DNA of 64,000 nucleotides, taken from Myxococcales bacterium (lineage in GTDB: Bacteria; Myxococcota_A; UBA9042). Under the pieces are notes generated by a model. That model did not search any database. It saw only the letters and a list, made by a program, of their open reading frames with translations, and was not told the origin of the DNA. How positions within the stretch are numbered: the stretch's first letter is position 1; each line of letters begins with the position of its first letter. Location: positions 1 to 64,000 of the forward strand of contig SHZF01000018.1 of NCBI GenBank assembly GCA_009692425.1. The letters run 5' to 3'. Position numbers and translations under genes: made by a program. Positions 182 to 60,890 of this stretch are shown here, one piece after another.

Positions 182-197
182 TGCAATCGCCGTGCCA
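182..197 (-). promoter_or_regulatory. Sigma-54 (-24/-12) promoter element
   Basis: On the minus strand this reads TGGCACGGCGATTGCA, an exact match to the sigma-54 consensus TGGCACG-N4-TTGC(A/T). The expected start is about 12 bp beyond the GC, near 171, leaving a leader of about 35 nt before the ATG at 137. The upstream side (about 199-260) is AT-rich compared with the rest of the window and could hold activator sites. Confidence 0.7.
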
Positions 198-23905: not shown

Positions 23906-24798
23906 GGTTCGGCGCTCGCTGGACCCACGCGGCAGTCGCGGTGCTCGACGTAGACCCGACCGAGCCGGAGCACGCGCAGGTGGTTTGCCATCGCCTCGGC
24001 CAGCGTGACGCTGCGGTGCTGGCCGCCGGTGCATCCCAGCGCAATCGTCACGAGCGCGCGCCCCTCTTGGGCGTGCAGCGGCAGCACATGATCGCACAGC
24101 CCCGCCATCTTGCTGAGCGCGTCCATGCCACCGTGGCCCAGCACCCAGTCCGACACCGCAGCGTCGAGGCCGGTCAGCGGCGACAGCGCCGGCACGAAGT
24201 ACGGATTGTCGAGGTAGCGCACGTCGAACACGTAGTCGGCATCGCGCGGCAGGCCATGCTTGTAGCCGAAGCTGACCAGCGCGACCGTCAGCCGCATCCC
24301 GGCCGAGTGCTCCGGGTCGAACACGCGCTGCACCTGGCGCTTCAGTTGGTGCACGTTCAAGTCGGTCGTTTCGAGCCGTAGCGTCGTGTGCTCCCGGATG
24401 GCCAGCATCGCCGCCCGCTCGGCCGCGATCGCCTCCGTCACGGTGCCGGCCTGCCAGATCGGATGCTTCCGCCGCGTCTCGGCAAAGCGCCGGATCAGCA
24501 CGTCGTCGGCGCAGTCGAGGAAGAGGACCTCGGGCAGCACGCCTGCGTCGCGCAGCTTGTTCAGCGCCACGTCGAGGTCGCCCAGTAGCTGGCCGGCGCG
24601 CGCATCGATGCCGACGGCGATCGGCATGGTCGCCATGCGCTCGGCCAGCGTGTCATGCAACTCCAGCAACAGGCCCGACGGCAGGTTGTCGACGCAGAAA
24701 AAGCCGACGTCCTCAAGCGCGCGCAGGCACGTCGAGCGGCCGGACCCGCTCATGCCGGTCACGATGACGAAACGCGTGCTGCCTCGGGTGCTGGACAT
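23902..24798 (-). CDS. rapZ: RapZ-type P-loop nucleotide-binding protein
   Basis: 298 residues. Walker [17 protein letters not shown] near the N-terminus, the DNLP motif ([10 protein letters not shown]), and the C-terminal signature [26 protein letters not shown] plus [10 protein letters not shown]. RapZ homologues control glucosamine-6-phosphate supply by adapting RNase E to sRNA in enterobacteria; the mechanism elsewhere is less clear. Its start overlaps the rpoN stop by one base and its stop overlaps the rluF start, forming a tight operon. The usual neighbours hpf and ptsN are absent. Confidence 0.93.
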
Positions 24799-26507
24799 CA
24801 GAACACCTTGCGCCGCCGCGACGACGGCTCGATGTCCATGGCCTCGCGGTACTTCGCCACCGTGCGGCGCGCGATCGTGATCGGTTGGCTGGGGCGCAAC
24901 GCGTCGACCTGGGCGTCAGTGCATTCCAGGCGCGCCAGCACCCTGCCGCGGTCGAGGTGGCCGGCGAGGATGTCGGCGATCTCCTGGTCCGACAGCGGCG
25001 CCGACGGCAGTTCCTTGTCGATCAGGCGCTTGATCCAGCCGCGCACGGCCTCGGCCGCCATGTCGTCGCCGCCGCCCGTCGCGGCGATGCGGCTGTTGAA
25101 GAAGAACTTCAGTTCGTAGATGCCCTGCGGCGTGTGCACATACTTTGCCGTGGTGACGCGGCTCACTGTCGATTCGTGCAGCCCCACGTCTTCGGCCACG
25201 TCGCGCAGCACGAGCGGCCGCAGCTTGTCGACGCCAAGATCGAGAAACGGCCGCTGAAACTTCATGATCGACTCAGTCACGCGCTGGATCGTCGATTGGC
25301 GCTGCTGGATCGAGCGGATCATCCACTGCGCCGCGCGCATCTTGTCGGCGAGGTACTCCTTGGCGGAGTCGTCGCCCTGGCCGGTGAGCGCGTCCTGGTA
25401 GTATTTCGAGACGCGCAGCCGCGGCAGGCCGTCTTCGTTGAGCACGACCACGTACTCCTCGCCCAGCTTGACCACGTAGACGTCGGGCGTGATGTAGCGC
25501 GCGGACTCGCCGTTGTAGAGGCGTCCAGGTCGCGGCTCCAGGGCGCCGAGCAGCCCCATCAGGCGCTCCAGTTCGTCAGGCGTGCAGCGCAGATCGCGGC
25601 GGATGGCTTCGCGGTTGCGTGCCTCGATGTCGGGCAGGTGGAATTCGATCAGCTTGAGCAGGCGTCGCTCGCGCGGATGCTCCTGGCGCGCTTGCACGAG
25701 TAGGCAATCGCGCAGGTCGCGCGCCGCCACGCCAGGCGGATCGAGGCTGCGCACGGCGTCGAGCACGGCATGCACCTCGGCCGGCGTTGCGCCATGCAGG
25801 GCCGCGATCGCACGCGTTGAGTTCGCCGCAAACACCTCCGTCTGGCAGCCGCGCGCCTCCGCCTCGACCTGCCACAGCTCGAGTTCTTTGTCGGCGAGCC
25901 AGAACAGGGAGAAGCCAAAGTGCCCGACCTCGACCTCCAGGCCTTGCGTGCGCGCGCGTCCAAGCAACATGGCGCGCACGGGCTCCGGCCCGGCCGAGAT
26001 GGTCAACCGGCTCGGGCGAAAGTATCCGTCGTCGTCCAGGTTGCCGATCAAATCGAGCGCGATCTCGCGTTGCAGGGGCGTCAGCGCCGTCGTGCCAAGT
26101 TGTTCCTCCATGACCTCGCCGAGCGATGCGGCCCGCGTCAGCGTCTGGGCGAGCGCGGGTCGCTCCTCGTCCTGATCGCGGTAGCTGCCGATGCCCTCCG
26201 TGGGGCCTTGTGCCAGGTCGGCGAAGTAGCTCTGCCAGTCGATCTCGGTGCGTTCGCGCGTCGCGGCCGGCCCTTCGATGCTCTGAACCACTCCCTCGCC
26301 GCCCGTGATCTGGTTCGACATCGCACCGTCGTTCGCGACCGGCGGAGCCTCTTCGAGCAGCGGGTTCTCGGCGAGCGCCTCCGAAATCGAATCGACGAGT
26401 TCGGTGCGCGACAGTTGCAGCAAGCGGATCGCCTGCTGCAACTGGTGGGTCATCACCAGCCGCTGCTCGAGGCGCTGCCCGACATGCATGCCGGTCCGAA
26501 TCTCCAT
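24798..26507 (-). CDS. rpoN: RNA polymerase sigma-54 factor with insertion in core-binding region
   Basis: 569 residues, longer than the usual about 480-500. Region I (Gln-rich MHVGQRLEQRLVMTHQLQQA), acidic linker, core-binding region, HTH region and the RpoN box ARRTVAKYRE (about 546-555) are all present. Between the conserved DGYF (about 160) and the helix beginning TRAIAALHG (about 231) there is an extra stretch of roughly 65-70 residues (including WLADKELELWQVEAEARG) not found in typical RpoN. ATG 26507 is the start. It initiates at TGGCAC-N5-TTGC promoters with AAA+ activators. One such promoter lies upstream, suggesting autoregulation. Confidence 0.93.
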   Translation of the reverse strand: MEIRTGMHVGQRLEQRLVMTHQLQQAIRLLQLSRTELVDSISEALAENPLLEEAPPVANDGAMSNQITGGEGVVQSIEGPAATRERTEIDWQSYFADLAQGPTEGIGSYRDQDEERPALAQTLTRAASLGEVMEEQLGTTALTPLQREIALDLIGNLDDDGYFRPSRLTISAGPEPVRAMLLGRARTQGLEVEVGHFGFSLFWLADKELELWQVEAEARGCQTEVFAANSTRAIAALHGATPAEVHAVLDAVRSLDPPGVAARDLRDCLLVQARQEHPRERRLLKLIEFHLPDIEARNREAIRRDLRCTPDELERLMGLLGALEPRPGRLYNGESARYITPDVYVVKLGEEYVVVLNEDGLPRLRVSKYYQDALTGQGDDSAKEYLADKMRAAQWMIRSIQQRQSTIQRVTESIMKFQRPFLDLGVDKLRPLVLRDVAEDVGLHESTVSRVTTAKYVHTPQGIYELKFFFNSRIAATGGGDDMAAEAVRGWIKRLIDKELPSAPLSDQEIADILAGHLDRGRVLARLECTDAQVDALRPSQPITIARRTVAKYREAMDIEPSSRRRKVF

Positions 26508-26568: not shown

Positions 26569-26598
26569 AGTGTACGCGTGCAGTGCATTTGCAGGCAA
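26569..26598 (-). promoter_or_regulatory. Sigma-70-type promoter in front of rpoN, overlapping the sigma-54 site
   Basis: On the minus strand: -35 TTGCCT, 18-bp spacer, -10 TACACT. The -35 shares bases with the -12 part of the sigma-54 element, so the two polymerase forms could compete. Start expected near 26562. Confidence 0.4.
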
Positions 26599-26610
26599 GA
26601 ATCGTGCCAA
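26595..26610 (-). promoter_or_regulatory. Sigma-54 (-24/-12) promoter upstream of rpoN
   Basis: The minus strand reads TTGGCACGATTCTTGC, an exact match to TTGGCACG-N4-TTGC. It points at rpoN, with the start expected near 26584 and a leader of about 77 nt. It implies that sigma-54 controls its own gene, as reported for some bacteria. Confidence 0.7.
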
Positions 26611-26634: not shown

Positions 26635-26663
26635 TTGACAACCGTGCGACGCGGGCCTTGTCT
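26635..26663 (+). promoter_or_regulatory. Sigma-70-type promoter of dnaJ
   Basis: A perfect -35 TTGACA at 26635-26640, 17-bp spacer, weak -10 TTGTCT. About 59 bp before the dnaJ ATG and directed towards it. Confidence 0.4.
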
Positions 26664-26721: not shown

Positions 26722-27789
26722 ATGGCCAAGCGCGACTATTACGAGGTCCTGGGGGTCGCGCGCGATGTCGGCGAGACCGACATCAAGAAGGCGTTCCGCA
26801 AGGCAGCCATCCAGTACCATCCCGACAAGAATCCCGGCGACAGCGGCGCAGAGGAGATGTTCAAGCAGTGCGCTGAGGCGTACGACGTGCTGTCCGACGG
26901 GCAGAAACGCGCGCGCTACGACCGGTTTGGCCACGCCGCGTTTGAGACGGGTGGCGGCCCGGCAACGGCGCAGTACACGAACATGGACGACCTGTTCAGC
27001 CACTTTGGCGACATCTTCGGCGACATGTTCGGCGGGCGTGGCCGTGGCGGGCGCGGGCGGCCGGCGCGAGCGAGCGACCTGCGCTTCGACCTGACCGTCA
27101 CGCTCGAAGAAGCTTGCCTCGGCACCCGCAAGGAACTCGTGATCCCGCGCGTCGATGCCTGCGGCACCTGCCGGGGCTCCGGGTGCAAGCCGGGTACCCA
27201 GCCCGACGCGTGCTCGCAGTGCCAGGGGCGCGGGCAGGTCGGCCACCAGCAGGGCCCATTTGTCTTCACGGTGACGTGCCCGGCGTGCCAGGGGCAGGGC
27301 CGCCGGGTGCCCAACCAGAACCGCTGCGCCGACTGCAGCGGCGCCGGCCACGTGCGCGCGGAGAAGAAGGTGACCGTCAAGGTCCCGCCGGGCATCGACA
27401 CCGGCACGCGACTGCGCGTGGCGGGCGAAGGCGAGCGCGGCGACACGGGCCAGCAGGCGGGCGATCTCTACGTGGTGTTGTCGGTTGCGCCGCACGAGGT
27501 GTTCCAGCGCGATGGCGACGACCTGCATTGCGAGATTGGCATCGATGTGGTGCGCGCCGTGCTCGGCGGCGTCGTCGACGTGCCGACGGTCGAGGGCGCG
27601 GCCGAGAAGGTGAAGCTGCCGGGCGGCATCCAGCCGGGCGAGAAGGTGCGCATTCGCGGGCGCGGTGTGCCGCACCTCAACGGCTCCGGTCGCGGCGACC
27701 AGTTTGCCCACGTCAAGGTCGTGGTGCCGCGCAAGCTCAGCGACAAGCAGCGAGAATTGTACGAGCGTCTGGCCGCCGGGGCAGAGTAG
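26722..27789 (+). CDS. dnaJ: DnaJ co-chaperone
   Basis: 355 residues from ATG 26722. J domain at the N-terminus (RDYYEVLGVARDVGE, HPD in YHPDKNPGD), Gly-rich GGRGRGGRGR region, then four CxxCxGxG zinc motifs (CGTCRGSG, CSQCQGRG, CPACQGQG, CADCSGAG) and the C-terminal substrate-binding domain. All four zinc motifs are intact. It stimulates the DnaK ATPase. The frame is open further upstream, but this is the normal start. No dnaK or grpE nearby. Confidence 0.96.
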   Translation: MAKRDYYEVLGVARDVGETDIKKAFRKAAIQYHPDKNPGDSGAEEMFKQCAEAYDVLSDGQKRARYDRFGHAAFETGGGPATAQYTNMDDLFSHFGDIFGDMFGGRGRGGRGRPARASDLRFDLTVTLEEACLGTRKELVIPRVDACGTCRGSGCKPGTQPDACSQCQGRGQVGHQQGPFVFTVTCPACQGQGRRVPNQNRCADCSGAGHVRAEKKVTVKVPPGIDTGTRLRVAGEGERGDTGQQAGDLYVVLSVAPHEVFQRDGDDLHCEIGIDVVRAVLGGVVDVPTVEGAAEKVKLPGGIQPGEKVRIRGRGVPHLNGSGRGDQFAHVKVVVPRKLSDKQRELYERLAAGAE

Positions 27790-59093: not shown

Positions 59094-60890
59094 TCAGCCC
59101 TCGACGATGTCTTCTTCGCGATCGCGCTCCAGGTAGCGGTACACGGTGCGCACGTCGACATCGAGGTCTTTCGCCGTCTGCGAGCGGTTGCCGCCGTTCA
59201 GATCCAGCACTCGCTGCACGTAGCCGCGCGCAAAGCGCTCCTTGGCTTCGTTGAGCGACTCGACCTTGCCGCCGTCGAGCAGCGCATCGAGTTCGAGGTC
59301 GACCGCCGTGACGGTGCCGGTGTCGCAGAACAACACGGCCTTCTTCACCCGGTTGTCGAGTTCGCGGATGTTGCCGGGCCAGCGGTGCAGGTGGAGCGCG
59401 CGCTCGGCGTCCTGAGCGAACCCCTTGACCGCGACCTGCAATTCTTCGGCGTGGCGCTTCAGGAAATAGCGCGCCAGTACGCCGATGTCTTCGCCGCGCT
59501 CGCGCAGGGGCGGCAGCGTCAGGTTCACGATGTTGAGGCGGTAGTAGAGGTCTTCGCGAAAGCGGCCGCCCCGGACCTCGTCAACCAGGTGCCGGTTCGT
59601 CGCTGCCACCACGCGGATGTCGACGTCCTTGCCGTGGGATTCGCCCACGCGGACCACCCGTCGCTCTTCGAGCACGCGCAACAGTTTGACTTGTAGGATC
59701 AACGGCATTTCGCCGATCTCATCGAGAAACAGCGTGCCCCCGTGGGCGGCCTGGAACTTGCCATCGCGGTTCTGCACGGCACCAGTGAACGCGCCGCGCA
59801 CGTGACCGAAAAGCTCGGACTCCAACAGGTTCTCTGGGATCGCCCCGCAATTCACCGCGACGAACGGCCCATTCTTGCGACTGCTGCGCCGGTGCAGTTC
59901 CGATGCCACGAGTTCTTTGCCGGTGCCGGTCTCGCCCTCGACGAGCACGCCGACGTCGGCCGGCGCGACCTTCTCGATGCGCTTGAACAACTCCTTCATC
60001 GAACTGCAGGCGCCGACGAGGCTGCCGAAGTTCATCCGCTGGATCTGCTGGGTCAGGTGCGCGTTCGACAACTGGAGTTCGCGGATCGTGAACGCGTCGC
60101 GCAGCACCAGCGCCGCCTGCGCTGCGAACACCGTCGCCAGGTCGCGGGCGTGGTCGCTGAACAGGTTCACGACGTTGTCGTTGCCCAGGTAGATGGCGCC
60201 GAGCAGGTCGCCGCGCACGAGCAATGGGACGCACAGCACCGAGCAGATCTTGAAGTCCATGACGGACTGCGCGCTGTTGAACTCGCGATCCGACAGCGCA
60301 TCGGACACAACGACCGGTTGGCGCGTCTTGAGCACGCGCTCCACGATGCTGTCGGAGATGGCGAGTTCCCGGTCCTTCTCGCCGCGCGCCGACTTGCGCG
60401 TGCGCACTTGCGGCTTGCCCTCGTGGAGCAGCAGCACGACACCGCGGGCCGCATGCGTGATGCGCACCATCGACTCGAGCATCGCTTCGAGGAGCGTGTC
60501 GACGTCGTAGCTCTGGGCGACGGTTTCCGCAAAGCCCGCGAGTTCGGTCAGCAGTTCGGACTCGCCCGGGCGCAGGCCCGACTGGCTGCGCGCGCGACCG
60601 ACGTGAAAGCGCAGGCGCACTGAGCCGATGTCGACCAGGTCGCCCGCCTGCAGCACGTGCGAGTCGGTGCGGCGCCCGTTGATGACGAGCCGGCCGGAAC
60701 CGACAGACTCGATCTGGATGCCCTTCGCGGTCGTGCGCACCGTCGCATGGACCTCGGCGATGCCCTTGCCGCGCAGTTGGATGTCGGTGTGCGTGTCGGT
60801 GCCGAGGCTGCAGGCGAGCTTGTCGATCGGGTGCGTCGCCTTGACGGTGTCGCCCGGCCCGAGTTCTTGCAGGCTCGCTTCGACGGACAT
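59094..60890 (-). CDS. Sigma-54-dependent regulator, FHA-GAF-AAA+-Fis
   Basis: 598 residues from ATG 60890, preceded by AGGAGGG. FHA domain (about 25-95; conserved [12 protein letters not shown] and HATVR), GAF domain (about 130-270), AAA+ ATPase with GETGTGKE Walker A, the sigma-54 contact motif [19 protein letters not shown] Walker B, R-finger region and a Fis-type HTH ([21 protein letters not shown]). It activates sigma-54 promoters after a phosphothreonine or small-ligand signal. The FHA in place of a receiver links it to Ser/Thr kinases. Two sigma-54 promoters were found in the window. Confidence 0.93.

Follow-up and report, generated by a model that had tools for sequence, protein, structure and literature searches.

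The gene for sigma-54 (rpoN) of a Myxococcales bacterium is preceded by an exact sigma-54 core site that lies over a conserved housekeeping promoter. We read this arrangement, with somewhat better than even confidence, as a device for negative autoregulation of rpoN, possibly combined with activator-driven firing from the same site. The window analyzed here is a stretch of 64,000 nucleotides (contig SHZF01000018.1, assembly GCA_009692425.1), and its gene content, too, suggests a Myxococcota-like lineage. A sequence-only reading of it had proposed that the two promoter elements overlap, and they do; both elements also look real. The sigma-70 promoter is conserved, and the sigma-54 site lies on or beside its -35 hexamer in the window's genus and in the sister genus g8.

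The features discussed below are the following.

183-197, minus strand: second exact sigma-54 site (window motif scan)
24798-26507, minus strand: rpoN, sigma-54, 569 aa (Pfam Sigma54_AID, CBD and DBD; start codon agrees with relatives)
24891-24962, minus strand: codons of a 24-residue insert ahead of the RpoN box (alignment, profile search, model)
26569-26574, minus strand: sigma-70 -10 hexamer TACACT (sequence, conservation in relatives, shuffles)
26593-26598, minus strand: sigma-70 -35 hexamer TTGCCT (sequence, conservation in relatives, shuffles)
26595-26610, minus strand: sigma-54 -24/-12 element TTGGCACGATTCTTGC (core match and shuffles); TGGCACGATTCTTGC covers 26595-26609, and 26610 adds the leading T
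26635-26663, plus strand: probable dnaJ promoter TTGACA-17-TTGTCT, facing away from the rpoN promoters
26722-27789, plus strand: divergent dnaJ (Pfam; divergent neighbor of rpoN in most family members)
59094-60890, minus strand: enhancer-binding protein with FHA, GAF and sigma-54 activator domains (Pfam)

The rpoN locus

The gene downstream of both elements is indeed rpoN. Its product, translated from the ATG at 26507, matches Sigma54_AID, CBD and DBD in Pfam and belongs to the sigma-54 protein family by its activator-interacting, core-binding and DNA-binding domains together with an intact RpoN box (ARRTVAKYR). The gap between this ATG and that of dnaJ (26722) measures 214 bp, and the -35 of the dnaJ promoter (CTTGACA) recurs in relatives.

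The sigma-54 site

The core of the site matches exactly at 26595-26610 on the minus strand, as had been claimed, with GG and GC ten bases apart inside TGGCACR-N4-TTGC by motif inspection and 87 bp between the core and the rpoN ATG. The description as an exact consensus holds for this core but not for its flank, because a C follows TTGC where A or T is usual. Based on the usual spacing of 12 bases from the -12 C, the predicted sigma-54 start lies at about 26583. The 16-mer is the sole match in the window with up to three mismatches allowed. Dinucleotide shuffling of the 214-bp intergenic region, repeated 2000 times, never reached its score of 11/11 in the rpoN direction, and neither did any of 1874 background 300-bp windows drawn from rpoN loci.

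Across the 4.94-Mb genome we found 31 exact TGGCACGN4TTGC sites, against three for the backwards pattern. A pyrimidine precedes TGG at 24 of the 29 distinct sites of this genome, and A or T follows TTGC at 22 of them; in sequence, the flanks of these sites are canonical. Genes 3' of sigma-54 sites were picked by third-position GC, and a Pfam search covered six of them as well as the activator of the window. It recognized ComM, RadC, an N-methyl pilin-like protein and a Kazal-domain protein; another of the six products resembles T2SS protein C with a score below Pfam's cut-off, and the remaining one had no Pfam match. The second exact site of the window (183-197) points off the contig end, so that its target cannot be seen.

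That the consensus before rpoN is matched by chance is conceivable, since the backwards control yields its three exact matches per genome and, among the 31 sites, several have no clear downstream gene and some lie in probable coding sequence. We consider it very improbable for the rpoN site, given the shuffles, an expectation of about 6e-5 matches in 214 bp on one strand at the control rate (by arithmetic), and the recurrence of the site in a sister genus.

The housekeeping promoter

The hexamers TTGCCT and TACACT are separated by 18 bp, and TTGC (26595-26598) is common to the -35 and the sigma-54 -12 region, as the overlap claimed earlier implied. The predicted sigma-70 start lies at about 26562. 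Taken alone the pair is weak (8/12), and a promoter scan at a threshold of 9/12 found no sigma-70 match for rpoN; the support for this weak-looking pair comes from its conservation in relatives. In shuffles, TTGCCT-18-TACACT has P = 0.0024. A pair of at least 7/12, in which the -35 had to contain TT and the -10 to read TA...T, with the 16-18 bp spacing of a sigma-70-type promoter, precedes rpoN in 19 of the 20 family genomes (shuffles: mean 1.1, maximum 7), most commonly as TTGTSG-17-TASACT. A stricter form is found in 18 of the 20 (shuffle mean 0.2, maximum 3). These criteria were set after the sequences were viewed, which somewhat flatters the contrast with the shuffles. Neither the sigma-54 site nor the sigma-70 pair looks like chance, and rpoN looks to be transcribed from a housekeeping sigma-70-type promoter that is conserved through the family.

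Distribution and origin of the site

The upstream regions of rpoN were compared in 20 of 22 family genomes, leaving out G050, whose rpoN is cut at a contig edge, and G051, in which none was found; the region of G006 comprises 186 bp only. Overall, 48 rpoN upstream loci were considered; three were excluded, L088 and L101 because they meet a contig edge and L100 because its start is misplaced. Strong sense sites (10-11/11) occur in six of the 20 genomes (G000, G007, G010, G014, G017 and G049); shuffles average 0.116 and never exceed three. The other 14 have no strong sense site, with a weak 9/11 site in G002. The carriers are the window's genus and g8, which form one clade on the RpoN tree (support 87/91), and a single gain is therefore the simplest reading. 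Judged from this distribution, the sigma-54 site is younger than the family-wide sigma-70 promoter.

All six examined members of the clade of g1 and g8 kept the site, although its spacing from the ATG and the gene next to it upstream changed. In G007, G014, G017 and G049, the 1.5-1.8 kb available upstream of rpoN yielded no dnaJ, and the g8 carriers G007, G014 and G049 have another reading frame in its place. Since the divergent gene in these three is not dnaJ, the site follows rpoN rather than dnaJ.

In four of six carriers the -12 TTGC meets the -35, overlapping it in G000 and standing directly before it in G007, G014 and G049. The overlap is not universal among carriers: the -35 of G017 begins 21 bases past the sigma-54 site, and G010 has none that satisfies the criterion. 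In the non-carriers of g6 and g4, the letters immediately ahead of the -35 are mostly TTCGC or TTTGC, which suggests that the -24 box may have been the sole missing part.

Outside the family, scores of at least 9 were found in five of 25 regions and a score of 10 in one (G038), using the full 300 bp upstream; 53 and nine of the 1874 background windows, respectively, have the same scores. Among 25 named, distant relatives, one has an exact site before rpoN, namely Halomonas fontilapidosi (L047), in which TGGCACGATTGTTGCA lies 88 bp before the rpoN start in the same orientation as in the window.

Proposed regulation of rpoN

By sequence, the sigma-54 site falls inside the footprint of a predicted -10/-35 promoter. 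We propose that the ancestor shared by the window's genus and g8 gained the site on top of the -35 region, and that sigma-54 holoenzyme would bind there as a stable closed complex, unable to open without an enhancer-binding protein. Such a complex would block the housekeeping polymerase, and rpoN output would fall as sigma-54 accumulates. With a suitable activator the same complex may fire and produce another transcript that is slightly longer. We observe the sequences, their non-randomness, conservation and clade distribution, and infer binding, occlusion and the direction of regulation. Sigma-54 holoenzyme does not melt DNA without an AAA+ activator (PMC7057263), and in vitro sigma-54 represses the sigma-70 promoters of Escherichia coli that it overlaps in this way (PMC4551910). 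As the closed complex would cover the -35, and given the repression at the E. coli overlaps, negative autoregulation is favored, with activator-driven transcription as its main rival or as a second mode. The earlier reading had left repression and activation open; the anatomy of the region appears to favor repression. The genome-wide excess of exact sites, the matches to the activator AAA+ domain, the restriction of strong sites to one clade and the conserved sigma-70 pair also speak for this model. Against it stand the 14 of 20 family members that do without a strong sense site, and the carriers G017 and G010, which do not show the overlap.

The site could also be a productive second promoter that raises rpoN in some condition, with the sigma-70 promoter providing basal transcription only. 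Its perfect core and its normal distance of 87 bp to the gene are consistent with such positive autoregulation, as is the finding of rpoN inside its own regulon in other classes (PMC12316311). Activators also appear plentiful in the genome, which encodes sigma-54 and enhancer-binding proteins by Pfam. The sigma-54 activator AAA+ domain (PF00158) has 16 matches, a number that may include other AAA+ proteins because the same profile matches all 14 control genomes. The window's own activator (59094-60890) is clear and is a possible activator of sites like that before rpoN. We nevertheless regard positive autoregulation as rather unlikely, since the site lies over the housekeeping -35 in four of six carriers and no shared upstream activator site was found: the regions upstream of five carriers have no activator-type repeat in common, and the sole word shared by these five sequences is the dnaJ -35. 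With so few sequences, the lack of a common activator site is weak evidence, whether used here or in favor of repression.

In a further reading, sigma-54 binds the site with little effect on rpoN, which makes it a neutral or very weak regulatory gain. The 14 of 20 family members that have no strong site would fit, as would the many inactive sigma-54 sites of E. coli (PMC4591121), but retention in all six examined g1 and g8 members, despite the changed ATG distance and neighbor, makes this improbable.

Both rpoN autoregulation and competition between sigma-54 and sigma-70 are already in print (PMC12316311, PMC4551910). The available part of PMC12316311 counts rpoN among the genes under sigma-54 control in several classes, regards this as not significant in other phyla, and cites Geobacter sulfurreducens and Dokdonia MED134 for rpoN in its own regulon. 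These cases likewise have a sigma-54 motif before rpoN, taken there as autoregulation; unlike for the rpoN of the window, no overlap with a conserved sigma-70 promoter is described in that part of the paper. The rpoN of Rhizobium leguminosarum is negatively autoregulated (PMC3538637, citing others), the same sign as predicted here, on experimental grounds there. The genes argT, chaC, mdfA and patA of E. coli likewise have a sigma-54 site overlapping a -10/-35 footprint (PMC4551910, available part). In contrast to these, the target in the window is the sigma-54 gene itself, which closes the loop, and the overlap is common to a clade. We found no description of this arrangement in this group among titles and abstract openings, a search that lay mostly outside subscription journals. 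The circuit is thus of a known type, here in a little-studied bacterial lineage that is a useful evolutionary setting.

Explanations of how a sigma-54 regulon is controlled usually look to the activators and take the level of sigma-54 as steady. If negative autoregulation is true, coupling this level to the housekeeping promoter of rpoN would put an upper limit on the regulon as a whole, and a clade-limited gain over a conserved promoter would provide a natural before-and-after comparison.

An insert in the DNA-binding domain of RpoN

All 20 family RpoN proteins contain the 24-residue insert, located between SDQxI..L and the RpoN box in the helix-turn-helix (HTH) of the domain that binds the -24 element. 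It is absent from all ten aligned class relatives and from all 20 named RpoN proteins of other groups. Among 377 phylum genomes, a profile of the region retrieved those 20 only at E 1e-12, a search that would miss a more diverged insert. In an AlphaFold2 model that covers the C-terminal 190 residues (pLDDT 89.5; alignment of 21 sequences, with the insert absent from all others in it), the insert is predicted to form two short helices between the HTH helices. The rest of the model fits DNA-bound sigma-54 (8f1k; Z 15.7, 165 residues, 1.8 A) and the RpoN domain on a -24 element (2o8k; Z 7.7, 63 residues, 2.0 A). A single-sequence model of the whole RpoN was discarded (pLDDT 38).

The -24 element is read by the RpoN box (PMC7057263), and RpoN carries the insert, yet the promoter flanks in this genome are canonical. 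A fixed insert next to an unchanged promoter consensus raises the question of what the HTH turn can tolerate or recruit. The available parts of PMC7057263 and PMC2725144 do not describe such an insert, which is perhaps more novel than the autoregulatory site. A more specific proposal, which we put forward tentatively and with less than even confidence, combines both observations: the site would be an autorepressor and not a promoter, formed over the ancestral -35 by adding a -24 box beside the TTCGC or TTTGC that sister genera already have next to this hexamer, and read by a lineage-specific, insert-bearing sigma-54.

Other elements in the rpoN-dnaJ gaps

Two antisense elements were kept out of the carrier count. 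The first, TTGGCGCGAAATRTGCA (9/11), is directed towards dnaJ and conserved in all five g6 species, with a 10/11 site in G003 (L060-L064, L104). Its -24 variant is about threefold commoner than the backwards control in the 22 family genomes (138 against 43), and it may therefore be a weak sigma-54 site towards dnaJ. The second, TTGGTCCG-N5-TGCA, lies just past the rpoN -10 in g9 and g10, with a related form in g7, and fits the GG-N10-GC spacing. It was rejected as a sigma-54 site since it is not clearly enriched in the 22 genomes (27 matches against 17), and four of the 27 are the rpoN sites themselves. Downstream of the rpoN -10, a block TGCA-N6-GGACCAA is conserved in g9, g10 and g7 (L069-L072; related form in L068) and is perhaps the operator of some regulator.
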